Below the pieces are notes generated by a model, which saw only the letters and a list, made by a program, of their open reading frames with translations, did not search any database and was not told the DNA's origin. From Nereocystis luetkeana (taxonomy: Eukaryota; Sar; Phaeophyceae; Laminariales; Laminariaceae): a stretch of DNA of 64,000 nt. The translations under genes were made by a program, and so were the position numbers. Below, in pieces: positions 2,561 through 56,900 of this stretch. The stretch covers positions 9,427,324 through 9,491,323 of the forward strand of contig JARUPZ010000024.1 of NCBI GenBank assembly GCA_031213475.1. The letters run 5' to 3'. Position 1 is the stretch's first letter; each line of letters begins with the position of its first letter.

Positions 2561-5336
2561 TATAATTGGATTGTCACTCAATTTTCTTCAAGAGAATTGG
2601 GTAGCGGCGATTATAGCAGCAGCAACGGCGGCTACGGCCGGCGGGACGGCTTCATTACACTATTGATACATAGAAGCAATTAGCAAGTATGGTGGCCGCA
2701 CCGCATTATGAATTTGTGTTTCGGTGGATTGGCGTCTGCTTCAGCTGCTACAGTTCCCACGGCAGTGCCCGTCCTGTGCCGTGTCATCACGAGAGGTTGC
2801 CCTTGCCGATGCCACACCAAGGAGCGCAAGCGAGCCTGAGGGTGGATTTGCTTGGCTTTTGACTTGACGTGGCGCGGAAACGACCGTGTTTTGCGGGTCA
2901 ATCCGTCGTTTGTATATGGTGGGATTTTTGTCTTTACGTTAGGTAGAAAGCCCGCCCTTTTTTCCCCCATTCCATTCCCCCCCTTCCCTCCCTCCCTCCC
3001 TCCTCACCCCACCCCCGCCCCAACCTACGAGCATGTGTTTGTAGTTCAAACAGACTTGGTAGAGGCTGAGGTTGAGATGGTTCTGGTCCGGCATCGCATG
3101 GTATGGTATCGTATGGTGGGGTACGGTATGAGAAGGGTGTTGTGTACGGTATGGCATTATACCATGGTCGGCACGGTAGGCTGGAAGGGGGCGTTGCACC
3201 TTCCGGGGCCCAGCCCAGCAGCCTTAGTATCTGCTTTACCCGACGTTGATCCATGGTGTCAGTAAATCGGCACGTCAGTACTCGAGTAGTACTTCTTGTA
3301 CATGCTGCCAAACCCGTACCATGCTGTTCTGCCCCTATCATACTCGTACTACAGTACTTCAGAGCGTACGTTTGTCTAGCGGCCCTGACGCTTATCACTT
3401 TGGCGGAATAAAATCCTGGTGTCGGAATAGTGTTCTGGCTGTAATGAGCACGTTTTGGTTGACGGGATAAGTACTTCTGGTGACAAAATAATTTCCTGGG
3501 GACGGAACACATTTTTCTGGTGATGGATTACATTTGTGGTGACGGTGCATGGTACAGCGATGCCAGGGCACGCGGAAGAAACAAGAGCAAGGATGTTCCG
3601 GGTGCCACGTGCCAGGTACTGGATATTTTAGGCGCTAATTTGGATTTGGACTGGGAGCATCATAATTTTTGGAATCTGAATACGTAAAAATGGATAATAT
3701 GGGTTGCCATCTGACAGGAACACAGCTTTCAGGCCTATCCAGCATGTGTTTCTCTGAGTATGATGGGTTTCCACCCCAAGTTTACCAAGTAAGTCGTGAT
3801 GCAAGATCATACGTATCCGAGCATCAATCATCACGCGGCGCTACTTCTCGTACATCTCCCTATCTATGCCGCACTTTTAGACACACACCGCATGTAGTCC
3901 CGCAGCCGGGCCTGCTTCGTGTGGCCGACACCACTATAGTCTACTACTTTGTGTTGGTCCCAGGTTATCGTCAGTCATTTTCGACATGGTTTCCCTGGCA
4001 GTCCAAGTCCCAACGGAGTTAATTAAAACAGCCGTGTTTTACCGTAAGGATCCCTTGCGACTGACGCCGATACACCAACATAGTCAAATGAAGGTTATTG
4101 CACAAGACAACAAAGCATGCGTACACCGCGCCGATTGCCATTGAACAAACATGCTTGAAGGGTAACACCCACAGGGTAACCCCCACAGTAGGCAACAGCA
4201 CGGCAACGCACATGGTTGTCGTCGTGTTCGACAAGAGTCTACTAACAGTTAATGCATGGGGTACACAACCAAGGAACAATGGGCGGAGGGGGGGGGGAGG
4301 TCGCGCTAACTTGCAACACACATCGATAATTCCACAGAACGACATACAGCAGCACCACCACAAACGGCACCCACCCGCCAATCGCCTCACGACGAACCCA
4401 CCGATGTACTACCAGTCTACATCGGTACATACATACAGAAAGGCTGCGAGCATGCGTGGACTCGAGGTCTCGTTTGTGTACACACAGAACACCCACCACA
4501 ACACGCAGCATGCATGCATCAAACAAAACACACATCGTCACCTAACGACTGCAGCATAAGAGAGTCGGCGAGAGAACGAGAGAACCCGCGAGCGTGCATG
4601 GACTCGAGCTCTCGGTTGCTTACCGGATTGCTGTAGGAGTACCGCGCAACGTCGCGAGCTGGCGAGAGGTTACGTACAAGGCACACACCCACACAAGCAG
4701 ACAGGTAGGAGCAGGTGGAGATCACAAGAGACAGAAATGGCGAGTATTTGTAAGGCGCAGGCACACACGAGCAGACAGGAAGCAGAAGGAGGAGAGCAAT
4801 ACAGAGAGATACAGAAACGCGAGTGTTTTGAATCCTCGCCCGGTGGCCGGGACCCCCCCCGCCCCTGCGCGATGTGGGCGTGAAACCATCCTTGTGCAGA
4901 CGTTGGACAATGTAGCACACGATTGAGAAATTTGTCGAGACCTTGACATTGCGGGGTTTGCTCCATTGTTCAACGTCTCTACAAAATAAAAGACATTCTT
5001 ATGTCCGCATCGTGCAAGGGAGGGGATCCCGCCCGTAGAAGGGTTCCTGTAGATCGGCCGTTTCGTCTAGTCTACTTCCGCCGAGTGCGGGCGCTGCCGG
5101 CAAACACTGCTGCCGTGACGCGTGGGCGTGGCACTTCGGTTATGCATGCTGCACTGTCTGCGTACAGTATAGCAGCAGTATAGATAGAACCGCAGTCAGT
5201 AGCTCTTACCAGGCAGTACAGACTCCCTGCGGGGTGCGCAAGACCGGCCTCCGGCTTTCCTGGGCGGAATCGTGAGGAGCATTTGGGATTGCTGCTCTTA
5301 GTACCCACAAGAAACCAGGGTATACAAAACGTTATT

Positions 5337-5442
5337 TAACCCTTTTAGGACTGTAGTCTCGTTTTGGGGACAATTGGGGACAAATTACTTGGAATTTGAG
5401 TGCCTTGTCCCCAAAACGGGAATGGAGTTCTAAAGGGGTTTT
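5337..5442. mobile_element. MITE family 2, copy 1
   Basis: This is a near-palindrome. The left arm is TTAACCCTTTTAGGACTG and the right arm ends GAGTTCTAAAGGGGTT. The centre carries GGGGACAA and TTGTCCCC. It has an extra internal GGGGACAATT compared with other copies. Confidence 0.8.
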
Positions 5443-16900: not shown

Positions 16901-19900
16901 CACATCGGTGTCGGGGGAGAGGGGCAAGCAGGGGTGGCCCCAAACCAAAATCGAGAGGGACGGAAAGGGAGGGGCGTTCATCCTTGACGAGGAGGGTGCT
17001 GGTGGAAGACTCGGAGGGAACAAGAAGGGAGAAATAATGCCTGGAGAAGAGGACGACCCCGAGGCCGCAAAATAAGTCAGGAACTGAGCAGCACAATACG
17101 TACTTGCGCACCCTGGGCACACAGTGATCTACAGCGGTATTAACGGTGTACACTATATCCTCTATCACGGGGGACCATAGTTAATAGGACCTAGATGGTG
17201 TACACAAAAACCTTCAAGGTATATGTTTGCCTATTCTTACTCACAACTTTTGGTGCTATGTATTATGGTCCCCCGTAATAGTTCTTTATTTGCCGCTGTG
17301 ATGTGACGGCGTGCAGGACCTGCGTAAAACAGTTCCAAGGCAGGAAACACGTGCTACGGTACATCGTTCAGATTCTACGAGTCACACCCAGCAACATGAG
17401 CTAGATCATATGTACGACATCGAGAACAGTTGGATCTATCGGCCTTGAGCGATCTACCGTACCAGTCTGTCCCTGCTGTAAATGTAAGGGGCCGATTCTA
17501 CACTACAATTCAATGCAAACGTTCACTGTGTTCGAGGACAGAGTGCTACATAATGACGTGGAAATCGATCACCAGTCACAAACGTGGCTATTTACCTCAT
17601 ACCTCTCCGTCTTTCTGGGCGTATTGAGAAGTGTCCCATTTTCAAGCCTGTGTTTCATGTCGTCCCTCCCTTAAGGCGGGGAACCCGGCGAAACGGCTCA
17701 CACCCCTCTTGCCGTGAACCCTTTTTTGCACTACTGTACCTGGTATTAATAGTCAAAACCGTAAGTGCTTTACCGTCATATGACAACCACCACACCACAC
17801 TATTTGTTTTTCGGATCTTCCTAGGGCTCCAGCACCTTTGTGTGACCACGGACTCCTTCGTCAGAGAGTTAATGTGAGAACAACAACAACAACAACAACA
17901 ACTATTAATAGCAGTACTATTAATACCATAATATGGGACACCTATGTAAAATATGAGTAAGAAACAGGAAAAGGGCTCAGACCGGAATCCGTTTTTGAGA
18001 ATGGGCGCGTTCTATACTAACTTTAGTACAACGACTCTCGAATTCATTATTTCCCTGGAAAATATCAGCCCGACTTTCTTGTTGCTCGTTTTCGAACTAT
18101 TAATATCAACGGTTGGTGTCCTCTATGCTACTGGACATACCAGCACAAAAAATAATCCATTGCTCACCTCCCGGCTACCCTCCCCCGCAACGCCTTCCAG
18201 CTCTCCCTGAAACCCTCTCAAGACTTTCAAGATCTCCGAGTGGTCCAAGCCAACAAAGTCATCGTTCAAGTCGTGCAGAAAGTGACAGGAGTCGAAGTTA
18301 AGACACGTCCCCTGCAGCCAGTACCGGCAAGTGGTGGAAGCGAAGTCATGGCTAAAGGCGCAGTCGCTTCTCAAGCACTCCCCGCCCAGCAGATGTCGAC
18401 AAGGCTTCGAAGGCCGCTCCGGGTCGCATGCCGTCTTTACGAGGGGTTTCCATAGGCGTGCGAGGCGAATGGGAGTTAGGGATGGGGTGGGTGGAGGGGT
18501 TGGGCAGCAGCGGGGGGGGGGGGGGGGGGGGGGTACTCAATATCATGTATGGCCGTAGTCGTATGACTGGGAGAGCAACAGGGTGTGGGGGAGTGGGAGT
18601 AGGAGGAAGTAGGAAGGGGGGTGGGGTGGGGGGGGGGGGGGGGGTAGAGAAAGGCGGGTAAAGCTCCAAAAAAGGAGACTCACGACGCCCTAAACTGTAG
18701 TATCATTAAATAATTGTTATTTCGTTATCACGGAGGACAAATGGGCATATGCTTTCTTTGAGGAAGGTTCAGTACATGGTACAGACCCTGGATGTGCTCG
18801 ATGTCGCTGGGTAGAAAGGTGCTACGGTTGGATGTGGAAGAGTGCACAAACCCACCGGCCTTATGTATGTTTCATGAGGTCCATAAACAACCCGTAATAG
18901 GCGCGATCTACGTACAGTAAACTTATTATTAATAGCATGAGTACAGTAGTATTACAGCAGTAGTATTACGAGGAATCAATATTAATAGTACTATTATTAA
19001 TAGTATCACACGCATGCTACGACAAGGTTCGACGAAATCCTCCATGTAAAAACTGAGGTGTGCTGTTAACTACACGGGACCAGTCAGCGGGAGCGAGCGA
19101 AACATTCCCAACGTTCTCATTCTGGAAGCAAACACACAGAACAAAAAACAAAAACACGCATATACCTGACCAGCACGCCCAACACCGGTGTAGTGTACAA
19201 TATAATACGAGGGTTTTACCTGGAGCGTGGAGAGAACGATCGCGGAAGCTCGGTTCAAATCCCAACTGCTCTTCGCCAGAGCGACCTGTGGAAATGGGCA
19301 TCGTCATGAGCGTGGTCGCGGTTATCGTCGAAGGGGTCGTTGTGATGACGGTTGTGATGACGGTCGTGATGACGGCCGTGATGACTGTCGTGTCCTTATG
19401 GGGCGGACGCCCCGGGCAGGTTGACGTCTTGTGTGGTAGAGGCAGTGGTGTGGAGTAGACACCGAGGTGGGTCGTTCCCTCGGGTCAGAACAACACGGAA
19501 TGGAGTAAAGTGACAAACCTTACGGGTGCGACCTTGAACGTGTGAACAATGATGCGATACTATCTATAGAGGAAGCGGGCCTGGTATCCACTCCTATCTA
19601 CTTGTAAACACCAGCCTGGCGTTCTTAGTGCTCGCTTTATTATTAAATATGAATAGAAAGAGTACAAAAATAGCTGCCGTGTATATATATATAACTAAAA
19701 CATAAACAAATGTGAAATCGAGGATTTCGGGGAAGCTGACCTTTGAGAACTGTTTGTGATACTCCGAACGCGCGTACCAGGGGTTTCATATGGTCTCGTG
19801 AAGGATGCACACACATCCCATATCGAGAGGAACAAAATCTGGCAGCTGTGGAGCTCAGGGAGTGAGCACATATATTTGAAAAAATCAGCCGTGTGGAGAT

Positions 19901-22900
19901 CGAAGGTTTCCTATTACGGGGGACCACAGTGAATAGGACGGACGATGCACACAAAAACCTCTACAGTATATTGCGCTGTTTTTACCAACATTGGTCCCCC
20001 GTAATAGAAGCTCACGCCCCCCTGCGCTATGCACTATTAATACCAGGTACCAGGTATGTACTACTCGGTCGTTCGAACAAAACTTCCCAACGCACACAAG
20101 TTGAAGACAGTTACAAATACCCTGCTGTGCGAGTTCCCAGGTTGAACACCGGACGGAAATATCAGGACCGGTTACACATAAATATGAAGACAAAACGATC
20201 CCTACATTTCCGTCCAGAGGAATACCTACTACCAACTATGGACGTAAAATCGTTTTTGGATAAATACGGAGAAAAATGTCCCTCAAATGTTGCCGTCCTT
20301 GTATACGAGTACTATCACGGTGGGCGCAACGCAAATTCAAATGCAAAAAAAAACGGTCCTTAGACCTATGCCAATGGAAACGCGAAGTTCAAAAGTTTTT
20401 TTTCAAATATATCGCTTTAAAAAAACAGCCGAAAAAATTCTCGTACCGCCGCTGTGGGGGAAAAAGAGAAAAATGTTTGATTTATTCTTTTTTTTCCCCC
20501 AACGGCTGCAGGCGGCGCAATTTGTGTTTTTCTGGTCGCAAATTGTCAACACGGTGATCGAAACCAGCTCGTGCGACGATCGACGCTCGATCTCGACATA
20601 GACTCAGCCCACGGCCAACCCACTCGGTATCTGGCAAGCCCAACGAGTATAGATGACGGCCTCGAAGATATCAGGTGGATCCATGGTCTAAGGGGCGAGA
20701 GCTTGCCGGCGGCGTCCTACGGTATCCTCCCAAACCTGAAAAAAACTCTATTTTTTGCCATTCGAGACGGATGGAGAAGTTTTGTCTTCTGTTTTGTGCA
20801 AACCAGCGGCGGAATGTTTTTTTATCACACGCCTGGTCAGCTCCCGCCACGTGACACCGGCCATGGTGTGAAGACGGTGACCCTAGGGTGGGTCGGGGCC
20901 CCTAACGAGCGCACTCCGTTCAGAATTCACGACGCAATCGTTGGTTTTGTTGATCGATGTCTGTCGAGGACTCGGAATCTCGCCGCTTCGAACCAAAGAT
21001 CGGCCTGAGTTTTTCTCAAGCCGATGTTGGCCCAACATCGGCCGCAGATTTGCTTTTTTGGGGTTTTTCCAAAAGTTAGGAACTTTTCTTTTTTTTTAGG
21101 TGGCCCATAGGAAGCGTGTTCTGAATTGTTTTGGCGGGTATCTTTGAAATTCAACTTTTTATTGCAATTTCGCTGTACCATTGGCATAGGTCTTACATGT
21201 CCGTCTATATATGCTACTATAAGATGATACTGTACCAATATGGGTATAAATACAAGGACCGTTTAGACATAAATATGAAGATAAAGACGGCCCTTACACT
21301 TCCGTCCATATGCGCTACTGCTGTACCACTATAAGAACGGAAATGCACGGACAGTCACGGCATAAAAATGAACACTGAATGGTCTTCGTATAACGCTTTG
21401 GACGGGAACGCGAAGACTTTGGACGGAATTGTAAGGATCCCCACCTGCAGACACTCCGGGGAACAATCCAAAAAGCCCTCGGCCATCAGCTCCAGCATCT
21501 CCGCCTCTAGCTGCACCTGCGCATGCATCTCCTCCTGGACACCGAGGTTCGAATGCCAAGCCCCCCCTTCTACCCCCCGCCCCTCTTCCTCCCGTGTCTC
21601 CTGGCCGCTCCAGCATTCCAGAGCAACCTTTCCACGCATCGCACAGATGACGATTGGGACCAAGATCATCTGGGTCAACGTTTCCACCTATCGGTCAGAT
21701 CCTGCCTTACTGCAGATCTCACATTCGACGCAATGGGATGTTGCGGAAGATTGCAACGGTTCCCCCCCTGCCCTGTTATAAATGGGTTGGGTTGGCGTCG
21801 GTAGGCAACGACACTGTAAAACATCTACTTGAGCTAGACAAACAGGGTACAACTTTCTTTTTCTTTTTTTGGGGGGGGGGCGGTCGCCCACAGCTGGTTG
21901 TCGAGTTGGATCATTTGTGCGAGGTAAACAACCTTTGTTCCGCGCAAGTGGGAATGATCGCATCTCGTGGTGTCCGTGCTAAGGCACCCAAGAGGCAGTT
22001 ACATAGTAATCCCATTGCTGTCTCTGAAAGTGGCTACACACCGGAAATTAAACTAATTCATTGAAGCTGTCATCCATATGAAAGTCCGCCTCACAAGCGG
22101 TTCTTAGTAGGATGCAGCTCACCCTTTATGCGACACCTCACGGCGCTTCTTGGTGCAAGCAATGTCTGTCTGGTCGGTGAAAACCCAACATGCTCCCTCC
22201 CGGCGTTGTGAGGGTGTGAGGGTCTCTATGGCCATATGACTACGGTCATGCATGAGATCGAGTACATCTCTCCTAACGAGCACACACTCCCCCCCCCTCC
22301 CCATCCCCCTCCTCATCCTCCTCCTATGCTTCCTGTTCGCTCCAACATTCAGGATAAGCCTTTCCACGCCTCGGACAGCTCATTTAGGGTTTGAGCATCA
22401 AGACCATCTGGACATCTAAACTAGAGTAGGATACATTTTTTTTAGTATCGCGCTTTGCCCTCCACCCCCTGGCGTCTCCATGTTTCTCACGCCGACATCA
22501 CTGCTAATGTATCAAAATCTCGAGATCGAACTACGGTAGAATCGACTTTTAATTGTTTTTTTGCTGTTCGTCGTTGTTGTGTCGAAGTCGACTATTAATA
22601 CGTGCGATATTCAGCGCTAATCTAGACCCTGGCCAGATTCTTACATTCCCAGTCAACTTTTTCACGCGTGGGACTGACGATCTACAGATAGATAATTTAC
22701 AGATGGATCACACATATCATATAGATCCCATATCTGCCGCTATGAGATGTCGCGCAGGAGCTGTTTACGCCATACTATACAGCTCCCACCCGGCAACTTT
22801 TGTCTCTAAGTATCGCAGATTATACCTGTCATCTAAACCCCTAACTGTCGAGATCATGACATGCAATTAAAATGGTCAAATGGCGGTCTCCGACTTCTCC

Positions 22901-29588: not shown

Positions 29589-29662
29589 AGGAGCCGAGCC
29601 GAACCGAATCGAACCGGGTACATCATATTAATACTACTGCAAGGCCAATTCCTATGCACTCA

Positions 29663-30491
29663 GACCTATGCCAATGGAAACGCGAAGTTCAAAAGTTTTT
29701 TTTCAAATATATCGCTTTAAAAAAACAGCCGAAAAAATTCTCGTACCGCCGCTGTGGGAAAAAAAAAAAAAAAAAGTTAGATTTTTTCTTTTTTTTTCCC
29801 CAACGGCTGCAGGCGGCGCAATTTGTGTTTTTCTGGTCGCAAATTGTCAACACGGTGATCGAAACCAGCTCGTGCGACGATCGACGCTCGATCTCGACAT
29901 AGACTCAGCCCACGGCCAACCCACTCGGTATCTGGCAAGCCCAACGAGTATAGATGACGGCCTCGAAGATATCAGGTGGATCCATGGTCTAGGGGGCGAG
30001 AGCTTGCCGGCGGCGTCCTACGGTATCCTCCCAAACCTGAAAAAAAGTCTATTTTTTGCCATTCGAGACGGATGGAGAAGTTTTGTCTTCTGTTTTGTGC
30101 AAACAAGCGGCCAAATGTTTTTTTATCACACGGCTGGTCAGCTCCCGCCACATGACACCGGCCATGGTGTGAAGACGGTGACCCTAGGGTGGGTCGGAGC
30201 CCCTAACGAGCGCACTCCGTTCAGAATTCATGACGCAACCGTTGGTTTTGTTGATCGATGTCTGTCGAGGACTCGGAATCTCGCCGCTTCGAACCAAAGA
30301 TCGGCCTGAGTTTTTCTCAAGCCGATGTTGGCCCAACATCGGCCGCAGATTTGCTTTTTTTGGGTTTTTCCAAAAGTTAGGAACTTTTCTTTTTTTTTAG
30401 GTGGCCCATAGGAAGCGTGTTCTGAATTGTTTTGGCGGGTATCTTTGAAATTCAAACTTTTTATTGCAATTTCGCTGTACCATTGGCATAG
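29663..30491 (+). mobile_element. TIR element family T, copy 2
   Basis: Almost identical to 20363-21192 over about 830 bp. The left TIR GACCTATGCCAATGG is intact; the right TIR stops at CCATTGGCATAG with the outer GGTC lost. No target duplication can be read. The internal frame remains open. Confidence 0.88.
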
Positions 30492-36900: not shown

Positions 36901-39900
36901 ATCTTCCAGTTGCCCCAAAGTTGGGCTGCCAAGACTTGTCTGGTGCGCTACTCTACTATTTTCTACTGTACGCTTTTGTATTCTAACTCTGCTATACTCT
37001 ACCCTACCCTACTTCTGCTCTCCTCCACCCTACTTTACCCTATAATTCCTACCCTACCAAACCGAACCCAACCCTGCCCTACTCTACTGCACGCCATATC
37101 GCATTTGCTCTTCCTGTCTGCAGGCCCACCGTGGCAGGCTTTCTGGGGAAGGCGTACCAAATATTTGACAATCCGAGCTGGGAGGACGTGTGCGGGTGGG
37201 GAGCGAACGGAGATACTGTGGTGATTCGCAAGCAGGTGGAGTTCGCGCAGCGCATCCTGCCGCTGTTTTTCAACCACTCCAACTTACAGAGCTTCGTCAG
37301 GCAGGTATGCTATGATGCAGTAGTCCGGTACCATTAATGGTTCATATTACAAGGATGTTAGTATTTTAATTGCATCAAAAGCAGCACGGCAGTATTGTTA
37401 GTGCTAAACAGAATTCAGGAGTATGTGAATTATATGGCATGAAAGACTGGTATGCAAAGTGCAGTGTAGGTCAGTACAGCGCCAGCTAAAGTATTGGTTG
37501 TTGTAGTCGTAGGAGTACGGTAATATTTTATGCTCTAAGTGCGTATACTGGTACACGGTAGTGTATAATGGTGCAACATATTTTATGTCTAAGTGCGTAT
37601 ACTGGTACACGGTAGTGTATAGTGGTGCAACTGCTGTGCAGCAGGGTTATTACGGCTGTTGCGGCAGAAATGTGGTCAGCGTCAAAAGTGGGTTTGACGT
37701 GACACCACGCATGCATCGCCTTCTGATTTTCGTTGTCGCAGATGTTGTAATAGACATTGTCGTAGACATTGTCGTAGACCTTGTGGCAAATGCTGTCGTA
37801 GACATTGTCGTAGACGTTGTCCCAGATATTGTCGTAGACCTGGCCCTAGACCTGGTCGTAGACTTGGTCGTAAACCTGATCGTAGACTTGGTCGTAGACT
37901 TGGTCGTAGACCTGGTTGTAAACCTGGGTTATCGCAGGCGTTGTCGCAGACGTTGTCGCAGACAGTATCCCAGACGTTGTCGTCGCAGACGCTGTCGTCG
38001 TAGACGTAGACTTTGTCGCGGACGCTGTTGCAAGTTGCAGGTGCTGTCGCAGACGCTGTCGCAGACTCTGCCGCAAACCTTGTTGTAGACCTTGTCGTAG
38101 ACCTTGTCGTAGACCTTGTCGTAGACCTTGTCGTAGACCTTGTCGTAGACCTTGTCGTAGACCTTGTCGTAGACCTTGTCGTAGACCTTGTCGTAGACCT
38201 TGTCGTAGACCTTGTCGTAGACCTTGTCGTAGACCTTGTCGTAGACCTTGTCGTAGACCTTGTCGTAGACCTTGTCGTAGACCTTGTCGTAGACCTTGTC
38301 GTAGACCTTGTCGTAGACCTTGTCGTAGACCTTGTCGTAGACCTTGTCGTAGACCTTGTCGTAGACCTTGTCGTAGACCTTGTCGTAGACCTTGTCGTAG
38401 ACCTTGTCGTAGACCTTGTCGTAGACCTTGTCGTAGACCTTGTCGTAGACCTTGTCGTAGACCTTGTCGTAGACCTTGTCGTAGACCTTGTCGTAGACCT
38501 TGTCGTAGACCTTGTCGTAGACCTTGTCGTAGACCTTGTCGTAGACCTTGTCGTAGACCTTGTCGTAGACCTTGTCGTAGACCTTGTCGTAGACCTTGTC
38601 GTAGACCTTGTCGTAGACCTTGTCGTAGACCTTGTCGTAGACCTTGTCGTAGACCTTGTCGTAGACCTTGTCGTAGACCTTGTCGTAGACCTTGTCGTAG
38701 ACCTTGTCGTAGACCTTGTCGTAGACCTTGTCGTAGACCTTGTCGTAGACCTTGTCGTAGACCTTGTCGTAGACCTTGTCGTAGACCTTGTCGTAGACCT
38801 TGTCGTAGACCTTGTCGTAGACCTTGTCGTAGACCTTGTCGTAGACCTTGTCGTAGACCTTGTCGTAGACCTTGTCGTAGACCTTGTCGTAGACCTTGTC
38901 GTAGACCTTGTCGTAGACCTTGTCGTAGACCTTGTCGTAGACCTTGTCGTAGACCTTGTCGTAGACCTTGTCGTAGACCTTGTCGTAGACCTTGTCGTAG
39001 ACCTTGTCGTAGACCTTGTCGTAGACCTTGTCGTAGACCTTGTCGTAGACCTTGTCGTAGACCTTGTCGTAGACCTTGTCGTAGACCTTGTCGTAGACCT
39101 TGTCGTAGACCTTGTCGTAGACCTTGTCGTAGACCTTGTCGTAGACCTTGTCGTAGACCTTGTCGTAGACCTTGTCGTAGACCTTGTCGTAGACCTTGTC
39201 GTAGACCTTGTCGTAGACCTTGTCGTAGACCTTGTCGTAGACCTTGTCGTAGACCTTGTCGTAGACCTTGTCGTAGACCTTGTCGTAGACCTTGTCGTAG
39301 ACCTTGTCGTAGACCTTGTCGTAGACCTTGTCGTAGACCTTGTCGTAGACCTTGTCGTAGACCTTGTCGTAGACCTTGTCGTAGACCTTGTCGTAGACCT
39401 TGTCGTAGACCTTGTCGTAGACCTTGTCGTAGACCTTGTCGTAGACCTTGTCGTAGACCTTGTCGTAGACCTTGTCGTAGACCTTGTCGTAGACCTTGTC
39501 GTAGACCTTGTCGTAGACCTTGTCGTAGACCTTGTCGTAGACCTTGTCGTAGACCTTGTCGTAGACCTTGTCGTAGACCTTGTCGTAGACCTTGTCGTAG
39601 ACCTTGTCGTAGACCTTGTCGTAGACCTTGTCGTAGACCTTGTCGTAGACCTTGTCGTAGACCTTGTCGTAGACCTTGTCGTAGACCTTGTCGTAGACCT
39701 TGTCGTAGACCTTGTCGTAGACCTTGTCGTAGACCTTGTCGTAGACCTTGTCGTAGACCTTGTCGTAGACCTTGTCGTAGACCTTGTCGTAGACCTTGTC
39801 GTAGACCTTGTCGTAGACCTTGTCGTAGACCTTGTCGTAGACCTTGTCGTAGACCTTGTCGTAGACCTTGTCGTAGACCTTGTCGTAGACCTTGTCGTAG

Positions 39901-42900
39901 ACCTTGTCGTAGACCTTGTCGTAGACCTTGTCGTAGACCTTGTCGTAGACCTTGTCGTAGACCTTGTCGTAGACCTTGTCGTAGACCTTGTCGTAGACCT
40001 TGTCGTAGACCTTGTCGTAGACCTTGTCGTAGACCTTGTCGTAGACCTTGTCGTAGACCTTGTCGTAGACCTTGTCGTAGACCTTGTCGTAGACCTTGTC
40101 GTAGACCTTGTCGTAGACCTTGTCGTAGACCTTGTCGTAGACCTTGTCGTAGACCTTGTCGTAGACCTTGTCGTAGACCTTGTCGTAGACCTTGTCGTAG
40201 ACCTTGTCGTAGACCTTGTCGTAGACCTTGTCGTAGACCTTGTCGTAGACCTTGTCGTAGACCTTGTCGTAGACCTTGTCGTAGACCTTGTCGTAGACCT
40301 TGTCGTAGACCTTGTCGTAGACCTTGTCGTAGACCTTGTCGTAGACCTTGTCGTAGACCTTGTCGTAGACCTTGTCGTAGACCTTGTCGTAGACCTTGTC
40401 GTAGACCTTGTCGTAGACCTTGTCGTAGACCTTGTCGTAGACCTTGTCGTAGACCTTGTCGTAGACCTTGTCGTTGACCTTGTCGTTGACCTTGTCGTTG
40501 ACCTTGTCGTTGACCTTGTCGTAGACCTTGTCGTTGACCTTGTCGTTGACCTTGTCGTTGACCTTGTCGTTGACCTTGTCGTTGACCTTGTCGTTGACCT
40601 TGTCGTTGACCTTGTCGTTGACCTTGTCGTTGACCTTGTCGTTGACCTTGTCGTTGACCTTGTCGTTGACCTTGTCGTTGACCTTGTCGTTGACCTTGTC
40701 GTTGACCTTGTCGTTGACCTTGTCGTTGACCTTGTCGTTGACCTTGTCGTTGACCTTGTCGTAGACCTTGTCGTAGACCTTGTCGTTGACGCTATCGTTG
40801 ACGCTATCGTTGACGCTATCGTTGACGCTATCGTTGACGCTATCGTTGACGCTATCGTAGACGCTATCGTAGACGCTATCGTAGACGCTATCGTAGGGCT
40901 TGCCGTAGATATTTTCGTTAGCGCCGTGATGGTTGTTTCCGTTCACGTTGCCGTTGTTAGTATGGATAGTGTTGCCGTTGACAGTGTCCAGTGTCCTCCT
41001 CCATGTCCTGCTCTGTACTGGTATCAATGCTGCCTTTGCATCAATGATCGTTATGCGTTGCCCTCTCCATATCCCACTGGTTTACCTCAGTACACTATAC
41101 CAATGAATCGATGCTTACACTTCTGGCGTTGGTATGCAAGCTAACATCACTCCTCGTCCAGTGCCCTATCCTGTGTCGGCTGTTCACGAATCTATTTAGG
41201 TGTGCGTTGATGTGCTCTGCTGACATGTCCTTTAATCTGTCCGTTGATGTGTCTGTTGGTGTAGTTGAATATGTACAACTTCCGCAAGATGGTGCAAGAC
41301 CCTAACAGCGGGGAATTCAAGCACGAACTCTTTCGAAAGGTGCGACCGCTTCCTCCGCTGTACCCCATCCTTGTCAAAAGGTTGCGGCCGGTGTGTTTTT
41401 GTAGATGGTCTGTTAGCCATGTATTCATAATACCTGCCCTAATTTACCGTGTATATTTACTACGATATTACAGTACGTACTGTAGTATGGATTTGTTTCA
41501 TGGTTTTTATTCGTCACTTTCACTTTCCATCTCTCTGGACAAGCCGTGGTGACAGGTGTCTTCCCTTCCCCCCCCCCGGGTACCTGCCTCTATTTTTATC
41601 GCGCTGAGGGTACATTCAGCATTCCACCGCTGGTCCATTTTCAGCGAGTTTTTTATTAGCTATGTACCAGTATATAGCACCTGGTACCAGGTATAACATA
41701 CTCTATGCATGTAGACGCTCAGCGGAGACATACCGTATCCCATGTACCAGGTACAACCTTCTGTACGGTTCCCATGGCCAACTGTGGGGCATGGTATCTT
41801 ACAGCCTACATGTAGTGTGGTATATCCCGTAACCTTATCGAGCCGTAACATACTACTGCACCAGGTATCACATATCCACTATTCAGCAGGGTATACCAGA
41901 ACAATTGTGTGATACGGTGTCCCGTAGCGTACTGTACCGGTACGGTATATTATGGTAGCCTTTCGTGGTACGGTACCCCATACAGTACAATCAACTGCGC
42001 TATTCGGTATCTATTCGGTATCCGTTCGGTATCCCATAACCTACTGCTGTGTGGTACGGTATACTAACAGGCACCAGGTACACGGTACGGTACTTTTATA
42101 TACCGGTAGACGCTAGCAGCCTGGCACGACTACTCGACACGATTGGCTCACTTAACGTCCTCCTCTCTCCTTTGTCTTGTGCATCTATCTCCCAGGGTAA
42201 CCGTCACATGTTGCACCTGATCAAGAGGAAGCAGAGTCCGGGAGCTGCTGCCTCAGCCGGGGGAGGAGGGGCTCGTGAGTCGATGCCTCTTCGCTTGCCT
42301 TGCTTGCCTTGCTTGTGGCATTACAGTATTAGTAGAACAACGCGTGTAAGCTGTTGCTGCTGTCGCACGCTATAATCCATGACTGTCTCCCTGCCTCCCC
42401 TCCTGAAACTTTGCATAGCTTGTGCTTTGAATGCTTTTTTTATGGAAATTATAGGAAATGGCACAGCCCTCAAGGAGACGCCGTCTTTATATCTGGCCCA
42501 ATAAGCTCGCAGTTATTCTCGCTTACAATTACTTTCTTTCCGTGGTTTCTCGGATATGCTTTGTATAGCTTTTATAGACTACCTACGCGAAATTTTGAGG
42601 TGACGTCGCAATAAAAACGGGGAAATTGGTGTAAATTTGCTCATTCTACCTAACTCGCTGAAAATCTCAATACCAGTCGTTTTAGTTGGGTCAAGCCGAA
42701 AAGCCTGAGACCCTTCACTTAACCGTCCGCATTCTCGCCGTTTCGCGCTAACGTATCTGCTTCTTCTTTTTTCTGTGTAAGTTTATCGGTCTGCGGGTTT
42801 GCAAAAATATAGCTCGTGCTCACCACGCTTCCACGTGCTGGACCAGGTTCCGTATAATACGGGTCGTGTTTCGAAGGCTACCCGTCACCCCCCGTTGCAA

Positions 42901-45900
42901 AAGAAGAACAAACAGCTGCTACCTCGTACATCGAAGGTAACTTCTGGCTTGCCGTTCGTGCTTCTCCTCCCAGGAGGGAAGCCGGAGTTGGATGGCAAAG
43001 GAGGCGATGCTACCGGCAGAGGGGACGGAGGGGGGGGCGCCTCTGAGAAGGCGAGAGTCGCGGGGGGCATCATGAAGGAGGCGGACAGCGTTTTGGACGA
43101 GCTGGTCAGATTACGGGAGTGGAAGGAGGAGATGGAGAGCACGTGAGTTCTGAGACCTGGAGCTGGCGCTGGCGCAGTAGTTGGTGACGGTGTTGCACGC
43201 TCCAGAAAGATCAGATCCACATTTCTTTTTCTAGATGTATGCCCCGTTTAACTATAACGACCAGCGAAAGGAAATCGGTATTAGTATATGTACGATGTTG
43301 TTTGTGCTTCGCTGTGAGAGCTCCTCGGCCTCTCTTACACTTTCTAACGACTGCAGTTTTGAGCCGTTTTTGTGATACCTAGCGATGAGAAGCACCAGGC
43401 GGTGCGCTACTTCCTTGTAGCGCTCGCCCACCCCTGCTTTGCCTACTCTTCCAGGCGCCGCCTCGGCCGTGCTCAGGACGTGCCTCACGGGCGTGTGTTG
43501 TAATGGGACCTCGGCGTTTGTTTTCTTGAGGATTTGGTGCCTTGATCGCAGGCTCGCCACACACATTTGTTTGCAGTCCCGTGCGCTCTATTTACGACTT
43601 TGGTCATTGCTGCCCACAAACGTGTCTACCGCATGCGCTCCTCAGGAGCATGTCGGAACTTTTTCTCGCGAGGCGGTCAGCGTTTTCGGTCGATTAACCC
43701 GCCCTCGTACCCGCCGGCCTGCTTTGCACTGGCCAGGGCCTCGCGTGCGCTCGTTCCGTGAACATGCGGGCGGTAGATGCTACAATATATTTTTATATAC
43801 AAGCGCTTCGCGTCGCGGGCGGTTCCGCCTGTGACGCTCGCTCACGAGGAAGAATGGAACGGAACAGACGGCCCGAACAATTCGGTACCAACAGGCGACT
43901 TGCAAATGCCAAGAGCTCCATGCTCCATCCAGGAAAAACAACCCGAACGCCGTATGCCGTACGTACGTACATACCCCAGGTAGGGTATTTTTTTTATTAT
44001 TTTGATATGATGTGCGAAAGAGAAAGCACGGCACAGCAGCACAGCAGCACCGCAAAAACAATGAAAACGAAACCGAAAATTTCAGGACGAAAAAAAAATC
44101 ATCGTCCCCTCTTATTTTATTCCTGATTGGAACTCCTTGCACCGGTCAAGAAGAAGAAAATCGAACAGCAGAGTTTCTCTCTCTGCCTCGTACGCTGACC
44201 GCCCCTCTCGCGACCACCTCGCCACCGATTCGGCCCTGGTAAAGCTTCCCTCCCTCTCTGCCACAGTGAGCCCCGCCGTCCGCCTCGTGCGAAGCCCGGT
44301 GCCCACCGCGGCCCTCGTTCGCCAGCTCGACAATGTTGGTGCTCAGACTGCGGGGCTCTCTTTGTGAACTTCAGCTTCGTCGCAAAAATAAATACCGCTT
44401 GATTTTATTTTTCAGACCAAAACGACCCCTATAGGCTCGTACATAGTATACCCAAGCCAAACCAAGAGGCTAGACAGAGCCCATTCATGCATCTCTCGTG
44501 TCTCGACGGACACGCGACGCCTAGCCACCGAAACGGCGACCGCGCTTCGTCCAACCTCCCCCCTACCCGCCAGCACCCGCTGACACCCGCGACGGCGCCG
44601 GGCTCGCCCGCGATGCTGTGTACTGTGGGTACACGCACGCACTCAAAACAAGAGAAAAAAAAGGCTCTAGCCGGCAAATGTTAGAAGGAGGCGGTGTTCA
44701 TGTGGGAGCTGTGAGAGGCCAGGGATGTACCAACGGAGCACGCTCAGAGAAAAATATATCTATAAGTCTATTGTGGTGATAGAGAACTTGCTTCTTTTTT
44801 TTGCAAAGATTGTTCCGAGGTCTATAATCGTACTCGTACTCCTACTCCTACTGCAATTACAGTTATCCCGTGATGCAGTGCTGGCAGCTCTATATACACC
44901 AGTATGTGTGTATCGGTGTGTAAATACGTAGGTGCATCTGCCGTTGTGTTTATACCATGCATATATTTTGTTGCTGCTGCTGTTCGCCTTTTGTACATCT
45001 GCCACCCGACGAGGTACTCCCCGTCTTTTTTTCTTGTGTTGATACCGACGAGCGTACTTTACTACCTTAGTGTTGACGTACGTAGACCCTTGGCAGTACA
45101 GCAGTCGACTTTGTGTCGCCTCGGTTCACCTGTTATCCTACCTCTCTTCGCCATTGCGGACATGCGCGAAGCCTCAGGCGGGCGCCAGCCCGCCTCGATG
45201 ATCCCCCCCTTGTACCTGGCTGGCATGCATGTCTTTAGTATACGATGGCTCTCAACTGTCCTCTTCACCTGTCACACCTCGCATAGACCATGCTGTACGA
45301 AGTAGAATATCTATTGTGCGTGTCTCCTCACCTGCCGTTATGATATGTAGTGCAGAATCTGTACAGCAGTACAGATCCAACCCATAAAAGCTGTCCTACG
45401 TAGATCATGCAGGTTATCCGGCTCCCAACCGGCAACATGAGCTAGATCCTACAAATCATACAGATCATACAGATCATGTATATATCTATATAGCTGCCCT
45501 GAAAAACATCTAGATTATGACTTAGGGATGGATTACCTGTCCTACAGGTGTGAAACTTTTAGAACTGCCCACACTTTTGGGTGGAGAAACAACTTGGAAT
45601 TAGTGTAGAATCGTATTAGGTCCAAGGGGGGTGATTACAAGCAGTACGTAGGGTGCGAGGGGGGGGGTGTTTCATGGCTTCAACTGCGCTGCGCTTGGCC
45701 AATGCCATGTACCCCGGTATGCAATGAGCTAATCGGTGTTCGGTTCTCTTTCGTTTTGCTGTTGTTGTTGTTGTTTTTTGCTGTTGTTTTTTTTTTTTTT
45801 TTGGCAACCAGTGTGGTGGGACTTAAGAAGAACAACAAGGAGCTACAAAGCGAGAACCAGATGCTTAAGGGCCAGGTGGCGGAGCACTCTAGCCAGCAGC

Positions 45901-48900
45901 TGGTCCTTCAAAACAAGATGCAGAAGATTCTGTTCTGCATGTGAGAGACGGATCGGATTTCTGTCGCGTGATTGCGGTAGTCGACACCACCCAACACCTT
46001 CAGAAGCGCATCCGTATATTGGGGGGCAAACTAGTTGGAACTATTTGTAGTGTGGGATAATTTTGGATTGCACCATGACGAGCGAAGCTAATGATGGTTG
46101 CTAATTTTCATGACCGCCTGTTCTTTGCTTTTGAGGGGGCATATTGGGGTGTTATTTTCTTCTTCGAGGGAAGCGAGTTACTCATCTGCACGGCCGTCTC
46201 GGAGCCACTGTAGAGCACGTGCTGCTACGAGCGCAGCGCCAGATGGTATCAGTAGTGATTTTCATGGCCGCCTCAATCCATTAGGGCCCGTTTCGGAGTA
46301 TTCTTTACTGCGAGTGAAGCTACTATTCATATTAATATTACTGTAGTCGCTAATTTACATGGCCGTCTATACCCTAGGGGCCCTGCCTGCCTTTTTATAG
46401 CACTTTTTATCACTTATATTGCCAATTCACGGCCGTCTCATCTTAGGGGCCCATTTTCAAGCACTTTTTTTAGCGAATTATATATGTAGTCGTCAATGTA
46501 CACGACTGCCTTCGTTTTAGGTGGGCGCTTTAGAGCACTTTTTATTACGAGCGAAGCTACGAATTTCACTTAAAGCGGCCGCCTTTGGGATGACGGACCG
46601 TTTCAGAGCACGTTTTAGTATTAATAGGAGCGAAGCTACTGCGAGCTGGATAAAAAATCGACTCTACACGACAAGGGAAGATTAGAGCTGGGTGAAATAT
46701 CGACGAGAGATGACGAGGTAAGATTAAAGCTGGGGGAAAAATCGACGCGACACGACTAGGCAAGATTAGATAGAGCTGGGCAGTCACAGTCAGACGACAT
46801 ACGACGAGGCAAGAAAGGGCGGAACCCTTGTCGCGACAAGAGTGCTACCGCTACTACAGCTACTGCTTGCTGCTGCTACTGCTCCAGGCAAAGCGCGTGC
46901 CGTTATGGGGAGGGCAGACAAGAGGCTAGCAGCCTAGCCTACCATGTGTGACCCAATGGTTGATCTGAGTTACGACTATTACGCAGGGCCATAGTAGCAC
47001 ATAGCATTAATACATAGTGATACATACCAAGTGCTCCAGAACCCACGACGGGTATATAACATGGCAATATCTCCCCCTATTTTCATGCCTGGTAAGCCAT
47101 GTTACCGCAGGATTTCGTACCTGGTATGCGTGTGGTCCACAGTGATGAGAGATGAAAGAGCAGAAGCAACAAGGGGGAATAAAGTATAAAATATGTGGGG
47201 ATGGGAAGAGAAAAGAATGACATGAAGTGAATTAAAGTGAAATGAAAGCGGACATCTGCGACATGCCTCGTCTTCCACCTGCGCACACGGCAAGCAGTTC
47301 ACCATGGTTAACGACAGGTACAAATATATCACCATGGTACCAGGTATTATATAAAAATACTTACGTTTATCCTTTTCTCAAAATCACTTGATCATAATAT
47401 AAGCACCTGCCTCACGCTCAGCGAGTCTCCCACGTTTTTTTGTCGCTTCTACGATCTTTGCTTTCTTCGCGTTCTTTGATTTCTTTACGTGCTTGCTTTT
47501 CGTGCCACATTTTTTTCCCCGGAACAGAAGAAAGAAAACTCGGAAAAAGAAGAAAGTCTATTTTCTTATTGTTTAGCGGTTCGGCAGCCTATCTTTCGCT
47601 TTTTTTCACCGGCTGGTTGAAATTTCTTTTGCTCTTTCAGTTATTTTTCCCTTTCATCTATCTTCCGCTTCGTGTGCGTATGTCTAAGTCGGAGCACGGC
47701 CACGCGGGCGAGCCCGGCACCGTCGCGGGTGTCGACGGATGCAGGCGGGTAGAGGGGGGGTTGCAATTAGCGCGGTCGCGGTTTTCGTGGCTAGGCGTCG
47801 TGTGTGCCTCGAGACACAAGGGAATTATGCATGGGTTCTGCCTCGCCTCCACCTGAAAATTAGACTGAGCATGTACGAGTCCATAAGGGTTGTTCGGGAT
47901 TGCAAGCTAACATCCAGGCGGGTGCTTATTTTTGCGACCACGCTGAACTATACACAGAGACGTACTTACGCCGTCCGACCACCGACATCGTCGAGCTGGC
48001 GCACGAGGGTCACGGTGAGCACCGGGCTTCACGCGGGTCAGGCGACGGGGATCACTGTGACAGAGAGGGAGGAAAGCTTCACCCGGACCGAATCGGTGGC
48101 GAGGTGGTCGCGAGAGGGGCGTGCGGCGTTCGAGGCGGAGAGAGAAGCTTTGCTGTTCTTTTTTTTTCTTCTTTGACTTTTGACTCGTGCAAGGTGTTCC
48201 AGGGGCAGACAATTATGACATGACAGGGGACGGGGATTTTCATTTTTTTTTCGCGGTGCTGCTGCTGCTGTGCCATGCTGTGCTTTCTCGTTCTTACATA
48301 TACCAGGTACATATAATACAACATATCAAAAGAAGAAAATCAGTACCCTACCTGGGGTATCTACGTACGTACGTACGGCATGTGCCTTTTGGCATTATCA
48401 AGTCGCCAATTTGCAACTACAATATTCATAAAAATATGTATCTTCAATCATCGACCTTCTGTTCGCTTCGCGTACTTTTCCTTCCTGAGTGAGCGTAGCG
48501 GGCGGCGTAGGCCGCCCGCGGAGCGAAGCGCCTTGTAAGTTCTACTGTATAATACGCGTAGTGGTACGTGTACCAAAGGTATTGCTGCTGTGCTGCTGCA
48601 TCGGTGATATATGTGCTGAACGTAGTGTGCTGTTGTCTCCTTTTTCGGTCTCCTTTATGTATGATTTACTCGTACTCGTCGGGGGCGGAATTTGCATGCA
48701 TCTAGAGGAGAAAAGCAACGAGTCATACACCCTCGCCTGGGCTTGCGAGACCCGTGTGACGTAGGGTGGGTGCTCCTGCGCTAGAAAGAGGCGGTGCGTC
48801 GCGGCAGCTTGCAGGATCAAACCACGGAACAGAACTGCCGTTGGACGCCCGAAAGGGGTGTGTGGGGCTACTGCACTCGCGCGCACCGAAATGTGAGTCC

Positions 48901-53933: not shown

Positions 53934-56900
53934 CCATCTGTCAAGGACCGCCTACCCCGTAATACAGCACTTTTTTTTTTTTTCAATTTTTGCTTGGTTT
54001 TCATTGTTGTTTGTCAGAGACCCGGCCGGCCTGTTGCCTGCTCCTCCCCCCCTCTTCCCCCGCCATCGTCTGCCCAGCACTGCAAAACGTCCCCTTTCCT
54101 TGCCCTCCTCGCCTCTCCCCTCTCTCGTCTTCATCCCCTCCCCTCTTTTTCGACGACTGCCTTCCAAGTACTACAACCTCCCCCTCCCGCCCCTCCTCGC
54201 CTCCCCTCGCCGTCATCCTGTCCCCCCTTTTGAACAACCGCCTTGCGCGCGCTAAGAAATGCCCCAACTTTCCAGTGTGTCTTGGATTTGGCTTTTTTTG
54301 TTTCTCAGAGGTCCGGAGCCGCATGACCCACTCCCCCCCCTTGACAAAGAACGCCTCTTGCACTTCTTGTAAACTTGTGCAGTGTAGTTTAGTTGTTGTA
54401 GCCGTAGTTAGTTGTTGTGTTTGTGTAATTTGTGGTTCATAACTATATTTTTTATAAGTTTGTATCTTATCGTTTTCATTTCTCTTTTTTTTTTTCTTTT
54501 TTTTCAGAGACCCTGACCCCTTGGTTGCTATCGGATCCCCGAGCGAATCTTCTCCTGGTGCGGGAGCTGGAGGAGCAGGAGCAGGAGGAGGGGGCGGGGC
54601 GGGGGGGTGGGGAGGTGGAGAAGCCATCCCCTCCAATGACGTAAGCAGGGGTGCTGGCTTCGGCGTTTCATTGGGTAATACTGACAGTCCCGAACGACCG
54701 ACCAAGCGACAGAAAAGGGCACCACCGCCCTCTGCGGAAGGCGGTGGTGGGGGTGGGGAGGGGGTTGGGGGTGGTGGGGAGAGTGGGTCGGTTGGTGATG
54801 GTGGTGGGAGGGGTGGCGGTGATGGTAGCGGCGGTGGGGGTGATGGAAGTAGGGGCACTACTGGGACTGGGGGGGTTGCTGCTGGTGGTGGAGGGGGTGG
54901 GGGTGGGGGTGGGGGTGGGGGGTGGGGGTGGGGGGGTGGGGGTGGGGGTGGGGGTGGGGGTGGGGGGGGAGATGATGGCGGGGGGGTCAGGGGCCGCCTG
55001 CGTCAACAGAGTTGCGAGTTTTTCGCCCGACGCCCCGTTAGCGCTGGCTGATCTCTTTGCAGCCAGAGATGGGCGCCAGCGGAGACAAACAGCGTCACCA
55101 GCGTCACCAGCAGGAGCAACAGCGGCGTCAGGGGGGGCGGCAACGGGATGGGGTGCCGGAGTACCCGCTGGCAGCGTCAATAGTGTCCATGGAGGTGTGG
55201 AGAATCATGAACTTGAGGATATTACCGGAGGTGTTGGCGGCGGAAGTCTGCAGCAGCAGCAGCAGCAGCAGCAGCAGCACGCAAGGCAGGGTGTGGCGGC
55301 GGCAGGGGGAGGAGGAACGGACGGTGGAGGGGTGGAAGTCTGGGGGGGGGGGGGCGTTGGCGAGGACGTTGTCTGAGGGAGCGACGCAGGTGAGACGGCC
55401 GGGTAGAAGGGGGCGGGGAGGGGGGTTCCGGTATCATGCATGGCCGTACTCGTATGACCATAGACCCTCGCATCCCTACAATGCCGGGACGAAGCACTCC
55501 GAGTTTTATCCGACAAGGCAGGCATTGCTTGCACCAAGCGCGAAGCGCCGTGAAGTGGGGAGAGTGATATGTTATTTATGAATAGAAAAATACAGGTCAG
55601 CTGCGAGATGGAGTATTTGGTGGAAATTGATATTTTGCAAGATGCTGTGTGATGCTTTATTGTCGCTCGTGTTTTGCCCTTCATGATAAGGTTCAACTTA
55701 TGGGGAAAGGAGCTGCGCAGGTCAGACTACCGGCTGTATAGGGAGGGGTGGGGGAGGGGAGGGGATATGGAGGGGGGGGGGGGGGGGGAGTGTAGTATAG
55801 TTTGCGCTGCATCGTATTGTGTGAACGGTGGGGGACTGGGGGCGGGGGGGAGTACCAGATGACAATGATGATGATGCTCATGAGGATTGATTCGATTGTG
55901 GTGAGGTTGATGTCGATGATGAGTATGATCGTGGCCATGAGATCATGAATCACGATGATGATGTAATGATGTGACAATGTGATGATGATGCTGGTACCAC
56001 GACGGCGGAAGGTGGTGAGCGAGCTTGACCAAATGGGGCACCGCGAGGGGGAGGCTTTGACGAAGATCGACAGCCTGGGGTACCACCTGGCCAGTCTTCT
56101 CGATAACCACGACCACATCATCGGCCTAGATGTAAGTCACACCATCGACCTTTTTATTTACCTGGTACCAGGTACCAGGTATGTAAGTTACATACCTACA
56201 GCAGATGTGCAGTTAACCTCTAGGATATTAAGGTGACTGTGTCTACAGTAGTAGGCGCAAGAAGGCTCTCTGCTCTCTCCGTCGCCTCACGCAGTGTAGC
56301 AGCCCGAACAACAACAACCAAAAAGCTAACCAACAACAAGTAACCAAACAAATTCCTCCCTACGAGGTACATTATAGTATTCGACTGGTATAGTTATTAC
56401 AAGAGTAGTTGACTGTTTGGGACGGCGGTGTTGCAAAAAACCGTTGTCAAACTACGAATCAGAACGAATAGCGGAATACAAAAGTCATCCTCGCACGCAC
56501 CGCCGCTGTGTGAAAAACGGGGTGGGGTATGTTTTGTTTATCTGCTTATTTTTTCACGCTGCTGCACGCGGCGCCTTTTTTTTCACGTTGTGTTTTTGGG
56601 TCAACACGCTGATCGAAAAGCATCTCACGCGACGTTCCACCTTTGATCTCGACATGTTAGTTAACCCAGGTGGGTTAATAACGGTCAACCCGCTTCGTGT
56701 AGGGCAAGGCCAGTGAGTGTAGATGGCGGCCTCGAAGACATCGTGCGTATTCGTCACCTGGAGCACGAGAGGTTGCCCGCGGCGTTATACCCTCGAAAAA
56801 ACGTCCACTGTTTGCCGTCGGATAGGGATCTAAGTATGTTGTCGTCTGTTTTCTACACACGGGTGGCCGATTTTTTTTTAATTACTCAGACGCCTGGCCG

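Follow-up and report, generated by a model that had tools for sequence, protein, structure and literature searches.

An almost perfect array of 12-bp units takes up most of an inferred intron in a heat shock factor (HSF)-type gene of Nereocystis luetkeana, and is very probably an ordinary non-coding intronic minisatellite and candidate VNTR, which would be transcribed and spliced out without a product of its own. The purity of the array is striking; the kind of element is already known. Minisatellites consist of units of about 10-100 bp that are repeated head to tail, and in a VNTR the number of units differs between individuals. The array lies on the plus strand of the window, by which we mean the whole stretch of 64,000 nucleotides that was analysed. 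In PMC8096271 the term is used for units of 7 bp or more. Having 235 in-register units of 12 bp, 2.8 kb in all at a single locus, the array fits this term better than the stronger "satellite" that was used in an earlier reading made from the sequence alone (hereafter the sequence-only reading).

Structure and purity of the array

The exact unit list of positions 38077-40896 gives 235 head-to-tail 12-mers in register: one ACCTTGTTGTAG is followed by a core of 198 consecutive, identical ACCTTGTCGTAG units (38089..40464; 2,376 bp, 0 mismatches), and then by variant blocks (40465..40896) in the order four ACCTTGTCGTTG, one ACCTTGTCGTAG, 19 ACCTTGTCGTTG, two ACCTTGTCGTAG, one ACCTTGTCGTTG, five ACGCTATCGTTG and four ACGCTATCGTAG. 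The sequence-only reading had counted about 230 units, which is correct for the array, the unit that it named being found exactly in 201 of the 235; it also placed the array correctly, with ends (38076..40893) that were off by 1 and 3 bases. Its near-perfect 2.4 kb correspond to the mismatch-free core, with which the recent or continuing homogenisation that it proposed is consistent. TRF reports the array in rows with periods 12 and 36 and scores up to 5254, as compared with 204 for the highest row elsewhere in the window and a top score of 510 over 22 other loci of the same genome (97,702 bases, with overlaps counted twice; not a random sample).

On its left the array is preceded by a worn 12-bp zone with indels and mismatches (plus strand, 37733..38076), delimited by the unit list and a TRF row that starts at 37733, in which lag-12 agreement is 59-78% in 100-bp steps. 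Since the 198 identical units are thus flanked by a worn zone and by variant blocks, we favour a minisatellite. The worn zone would be the older left edge and remnant of a degenerate 12-bp array in the intron of an HSF-type gene. Replication slippage, unequal exchange or conversion may then have multiplied one unit type into about 200 identical copies, the right-hand variant units probably being amplified as separate blocks. The array would then be transcribed within the HSF pre-mRNA and removed by splicing.

Alternatively, hairpins might have driven the expansion in the manner of CTG repeats, as either strand of the unit GTC-GTA-GAC-CTT allows GTC to pair with GAC. The minimum-energy fold of 12 units is indeed a GTC/GAC ladder, but where the strands of a hairpin-prone repeat should fold better than shuffled sequence, those of the array (144 nt each) fold worse, with z-scores of +2.74 and +4.32 and all 200 of 200 DNA shuffles folding at least as well for each strand, hence we reject this extremely improbable mechanism. 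As RNA, 12 units fold slightly better than shuffles (z -1.29, 20/200 as good), and the same holds for the initial 1,000 nt of the intron (z -1.99, 2/20 as good); this mild predicted folding counts somewhat against a plain non-coding reading.

Position within an HSF gene

The gene is recognised here from its HSF-type DNA-binding domain. A first coding piece (plus strand, 37124..37304, exon start tentative), the translation of which ends in ..QSFVRQ, matches Pfam PF00447 with 48.6 bits over profile positions 1-55 of 100 (cut-off 22 bits), and was also recovered by a genome-wide family search. The rest of the domain, LNMYNFRKMVQDPNSGEFKHELFRK, is encoded by a second piece (plus strand, 41265..41339) whose frame stays open past the tentative exon end. 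When the two pieces are joined, the Pfam match strengthens from 48.6 to 78.9 bits and covers profile positions 1-88 of 100; the best PDB matches are HSF structures. Sequence, frames and joined score thus point to a phase-0 intron of 3,960 bp (plus strand, 37305..41264), with putative borders GT at 37305 and AG at 41263-41264 placed by frame and domain, that splits the domain after SFVRQ and across which the domain is continuous. The location inside the HSF domain that the sequence-only reading had proposed is therefore borne out by translation and Pfam score alike.

All four HSF paralogs that could be checked, namely those with a split domain, lack a large array in their domain introns, which argues for a minisatellite of this one intron and speaks against an array common to HSF paralogs.

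Coding potential

Frames of more than 1000 residues on both strands, as claimed by the sequence-only reading, do exist: the unit leaves five of its six frames open, and the repeat frames comprise 851 to 1086 residues on the plus and minus strands. Their meaning is a different matter, since both shuffled (0.48) and random (0.40) 12-mers most often have five open frames, four of those seen here contain no ATG while in the remaining one ATG occurs only from residue 974 of 1044, and the worn left-edge units contain frame-shifting indels. That the array would encode a repeat protein (VVDL on the plus, YDKV on the minus strand) of a nested or alternative gene is accordingly scarcely credible, even though long open frames at other loci contain related 12-bp units, for instance the VNDN repeats on contigs C1 and C13, and the right edge is N- and G-rich on the minus strand. 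A protein-coding repeat is expected to keep its frame in diverged units and to have a start codon; the C1 and C13 arrays have no frame-breaking indels, unlike the left edge studied here, where the positions of the indels hinge on simple alignment with a single unit. Moreover, read-through from the upstream exon into the intron meets a stop after 10 codons. Uninformative frames together with this early stop again favour a non-coding minisatellite.

Mismatches by triplet position (first, second, third) are less telling. The left zone as a whole shows 33, 27 and 22 (p=0.22), with 18, 4 and 15 in sub-zone A (p=0.004), where the second position is avoided, and 6, 12 and 4 in sub-zone B (p=0.08); the right blocks lean to the first position (18, 9 and 7; p=0.04) and the right edge is even (11, 11 and 10; p=0.95). 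Corresponding counts are 5, 21 and 16 for the likely coding array on C1 (p=0.003), 4, 5 and 2 for that on C13 (p=0.49) and 32, 59 and 38 for the frame-broken array on C12 (p=0.002). Read as constraint, the skew in sub-zone A and the right blocks would speak against a non-coding array, but it is given little weight because the units have a common ancestry and a skew is also seen in the C12 array, whose frame is broken. Since neither C1 nor C12 shows a clean third-position excess, indels rather than triplet counts were used as the coding test.

Distribution and second assembled copy

For practical purposes, the array occurs at one locus. All counts of repeat matches that follow are lower bounds. 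All 228 forward matches of a 33-base probe lie inside the window, and of its reverse matches, 231 in number, 230 lie on contig C410, in which the region has been assembled a second time, such that 458 of 459 matches on both strands fall in the array or its copy and one falls elsewhere; this near single-locus distribution further supports a minisatellite. Probes for variant units have 8/66 and 1/7 matches elsewhere. The genome probes detected no second large array of the ACCTTGTCGTAG unit, but a few short or degenerate relatives on C1, C12, C13, C22 and C24 (at 2.35 Mb), which speaks against a dispersed repeat family; what is found is an array of kilobase size, limited to one or a few loci, and neither a dispersed repeat nor a megabase satellite. 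Twenty-seven bases of the array had no exact match in viral and prokaryote collections, which says little since neither includes eukaryote genomes. Among the titles and abstract openings of the literature matches listed, none concerned a tandem repeat in an HSF intron.

In C410 the array lies between the same flanks, and over 36.7 kb of alignment to the window there are no substitutions and three indels, all in repeats. One of these amounts to two array units, 200 in C410 as compared with 198 in the window, a difference that may stem from an error in C410 as a redundant contig. The assembly is redundant, with 131 rbcL matches that, among those listed, lie on contigs C62 or higher at positions <63 kb. 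Redundancy and the two extra units are also what could be held in favour of an assembly artefact, either of wrong length or wrongly placed from elsewhere. This is nevertheless very unlikely, as both copies have the array between identical flanks, only one of the 459 probe matches lies outside them and a misjoin would produce neither an edge with graded wear nor variant blocks in order; the collapsed or misplaced array that the sequence-only reading had named as its refuting case thus finds no support. A two-unit difference without any substitution in 36.7 kb counts in favour of a minisatellite. The length variation that had been suggested has a hint in its favour from these 198 and 200 units, counted in the two copies of the region within one genome assembly. 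The RbcL of this genome is closest to PDB large chains that include diatom and red-algal ones, which, together with the long introns and the number of HSF genes, tentatively suggests a brown alga.

Regulatory potential

A functional length switch, by which the number of intronic units would tune how long transcription takes or how the HSF mRNA is spliced or retained, is very improbable. It is favoured by the location inside a stress-regulator gene, the possible change from 198 to 200 units and the presence, in almost all units, of an AG together with one GT or more (206 AG and 461 GT in the array), which could serve as splice decoys; in addition, PMC7214746 discusses regulatory roles of intronic repeats for Drosophila Y-loop genes. 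Against it, a 12-letter unit readily contains AG and GT by chance, and the four checkable paralogs do without a large array. HSF half-sites are GAA or TTC, and the array (38077-40896; 2,820 bp) contains neither, so that HSF binding is not supported, and is unlike an HSF-bound satellite of the satellite III kind. Equally improbable is a fast-mutating version, in which unit number would set the speed of HSF pre-mRNA synthesis or splicing, and strains or even cells would differ in heat response by slippage alone.

Long, pure and almost restricted to one locus, the array may well vary in length; situated in the gene of a likely stress regulator, it is a candidate marker locus. If its length did alter HSF expression, it would offer a simple test case of repeat-driven regulation beyond the usual model organisms.

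Comparison with known systems

The human satellite III/HSF1 nuclear stress bodies, as described in PMC8535310, likewise link a tandem repeat with a heat shock factor; there HSF1 binds pericentromeric repeats, whereas here a repeat without GAA or TTC lies inside an HSF gene. In the Drosophila Y-loop genes kl-5, kl-3 and ks-1, according to PMC7214746, simple short-unit repeats also make up most of an intron, but those introns are of megabase size with abundant satellites, compared with 2.8 kb at essentially one locus here. Closest are intronic minisatellites and VNTRs, exemplified by the human single-unit VNTR arrays of at least 500 bp in PMC10502081. The host here is a different one, an alga-like eukaryote, and the array is known from two assembled copies of one genome rather than from a population; it shares with those VNTRs a unit of more than 10 bp, one dominant unit type, kilobase length, a purity suggesting recent slippage, variant blocks at the edge and possible length variation.

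Structure and location of the array

A single array dominates the window: Tandem Repeats Finder (TRF) reports it at periods 12 and 36 and scores it as high as 5254, whereas the top rows elsewhere in the window reach 204. In exact register it spans 38077-40896, or 235 units, and 198 identical ACCTTGTCGTAG units form its core at 38089-40464. The sequence-only reading had described it as almost perfect over 2.4 kb, and the core indeed holds no mismatch in 2,376 bp, so that, by a rough 95% limit, its internal divergence since it was last made uniform is at most 3/2376 (about 0.13%). According to the unit list, the core is followed on its right by blocks of 4, 19 and 1 ACCTTGTCGTTG units, with 1 and 2 core units between them, then by five ACGCTATCGTTG and finally four ACGCTATCGTAG units. 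To the left of the array lies a worn zone (37733-38076), also of period 12, in which 59 to 78 bases per 100-bp step match the base 12 positions downstream, against 100 in the core. Across 22 other loci of the genome (97,702 bases, overlaps counted twice), taken as matches to HSF or the repeat or as neighbours of the window and not as a random sample, the maximum TRF score was 510, for a 3-bp repeat in the stretch adjoining the window (L016).

The array is enclosed by a GT-AG interval of 3,960 bp (37305-41264). In translation, the coding piece upstream of this interval ends in QSFVRQ and the downstream piece begins with LNMYNFRKMVQ. The upstream piece alone scores 48.6 bits against the Pfam HSF domain; joined, the two pieces (86 residues) reach 78.9 bits and cover profile positions 1-88 of 100. 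The interval is well supported as a predicted intron splitting the HSF domain, because it has GT-AG ends, the score rises on joining and the alignment of the joined piece to HSF4 is ungapped at the junction; the earlier placement of the array between two HSF exons thus stands. Read-through from the upstream exon would meet a stop after 10 codons, and 15 stops occur across the intron in that frame. Subtracting the repeat zone (37733-40990, limits chosen by us) leaves about 702 bp; PMC12477816 puts the median autosomal intron of the brown alga Ectocarpus at 524 bp.

Several further features were seen in the window. A separate 54-bp repeat (37523-37631; 2 copies, 96% match) lies in the HSF intron too, a short distance left of the array. 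Coiled-coil-like stretches in plus-strand frames at 42781-43143 and 45609-45941 could be later HSF exons. An 833-bp direct repeat, 97% identical (20359-21189 and 29659-30491), is perhaps a mobile element, and two segments of about 470 bp, in inverted orientation and 78% identical, are found at 44145-44612 and 47703-48177. A minus-strand frame at 18126-18536 has a cysteine/histidine pattern, which we take to resemble putative CCCH zinc fingers.

Distribution in the genome

All probe counts of repeats given here are lower bounds. A 33-base unit probe, allowing at most 3 mismatches, matched the 465-Mb assembly 228 times on the forward and 231 times on the reverse strand; its reversed control gave no match there. 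The window accounts for the 228 forward matches and contig C410 for 230 of the reverse ones, so the genome-wide search for same-unit arrays that had been proposed yielded one match elsewhere. With a TTG-variant probe 66 matches were obtained (reversed control, 3); the window and C410 copies hold 58 of them, and four further places share the remaining 8. A GCA-variant probe gave 7, six of them in these copies and the seventh in a degenerate array of 12-bp period on contig C12. A 201-base core piece identified weak relatives, about 68-72% alike, on contigs C1 and C12. Since nearly all probe matches lie in the window or C410, the array is in effect single-locus. The degenerate C12 array (L013, about 4780-5400) has ACCCTGTCGCAG as its unit, similar to that of the HSF array, and many frame-breaking indels; its likeness may reflect common origin or chance.

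A search of the genome for the HSF family gave 18 matches, which we assign to 13 loci and, in addition, the C410 duplicate. Two matches each occur at four loci, with gaps between the HSF pieces of about 7.5 (C11), 8.6 (C30), 0.9 (C2) and 0.7 kb (C32). No TRF row scoring at least 50 was found in the C11 stretch and none scoring at least 80 in the C2 loci; rows in the C30 stretch score at most 114, and the C32 loci have one 24-bp row (score 94), by our reckoning upstream of the first HSF piece. As these four split-domain paralogs lack a comparable array, split HSF domains in this genome do not share it as a family trait.

C410 (36,751 bp) duplicates the region and aligns end to end with 35089-71825 of the window and its extension, free of substitutions. 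The three gaps in this alignment all fall in repeats: 24 bp in the array core (200 units versus 198 in the window), a single G within a poly-G stretch near 55772, and 9 bp in an AGT repeat near 69610, outside the window. Such repeat-only differences are compatible both with real variation in repeat length, the DNA being identical elsewhere, and with errors in a redundant contig of low coverage. Small contigs of this assembly hold much redundancy: the large Rubisco subunit (rbcL) has 131 matches, and those listed lie on contigs C62 or higher at positions below 63 kb, most with equal scores and a few with stops, therefore many seem to be redundant plastid contigs. The 198 versus 200 units are a hint of a VNTR, not proof.

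Open reading frames

The unit is open in five of its six frames and carries TAG in the sixth. This was the commonest outcome both in 20,000 shuffles of its 12 letters (0.48; six open, 0.22) and among 20,000 random 12-mers (0.40; six open, 0.31). ATG is absent from four of the five long frames and first occurs in the fifth at residue 974 of 1044. Aligned to the unit, the worn left zone shows indels whose lengths are not multiples of three; none was found in the right-hand variant blocks. Because five open frames are commonest by chance, ATG is largely lacking and frame-breaking indels occur, our conclusion is that the frames arise as a side effect of the unit length being a multiple of three, in agreement with the explanation first offered for them. 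Triplet-position skews of mismatches were mixed.

On C1 (L012, 4703-9901) there is a coding-looking, low-complexity frame, open for at least 1733 residues, with VNDN-like 12-bp repeats, which are related to the minus-strand reading of the array unit. Neither the C1 nor the C13 12-bp array has indels of length not divisible by three.

Origin and possible role

Since like variants are grouped in neighbouring blocks, local slippage or conversion would explain the variant blocks more readily than a thorough reshuffling of units by unequal crossing over. For human genomes, PMC10502081 reports a tendency for long single-unit arrays to be minisatellites and an association of array purity with recent slippage. 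Expansion driven by DNA hairpins finds no support, as on each strand 200 of 200 shuffles folded equally well or better. For RNA, the fold of 12 units is slightly ahead of shuffled sequence (z -1.29, matched by 20 of 200 shuffles), and z is -1.99 for the first 1,000 nt of the intron, matched by 2 of 20.

The usual HSF element is built on GAA/TTC. HSF binding to the array through this element appears unlikely, because the array contains neither triplet. The boldest reading, in which the array acts as a length switch for HSF expression, we regard as very improbable; the array itself is of low interest unless its length proves to matter for the HSF gene.

Comparison with known systems

A literature search for a tandem array in an HSF intron found none at the level of titles and abstract openings. 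Saccharina japonica is reported to have 16 HSF genes with up to 12 introns (PMC12899012); in that paper 'tandem' and 'repeat' are used once each, both about methods. Intronic minisatellites are well known, and we place the present array among them. In the Y-loop genes of Drosophila, introns filled with satellite reach a far greater size (PMC7214746).
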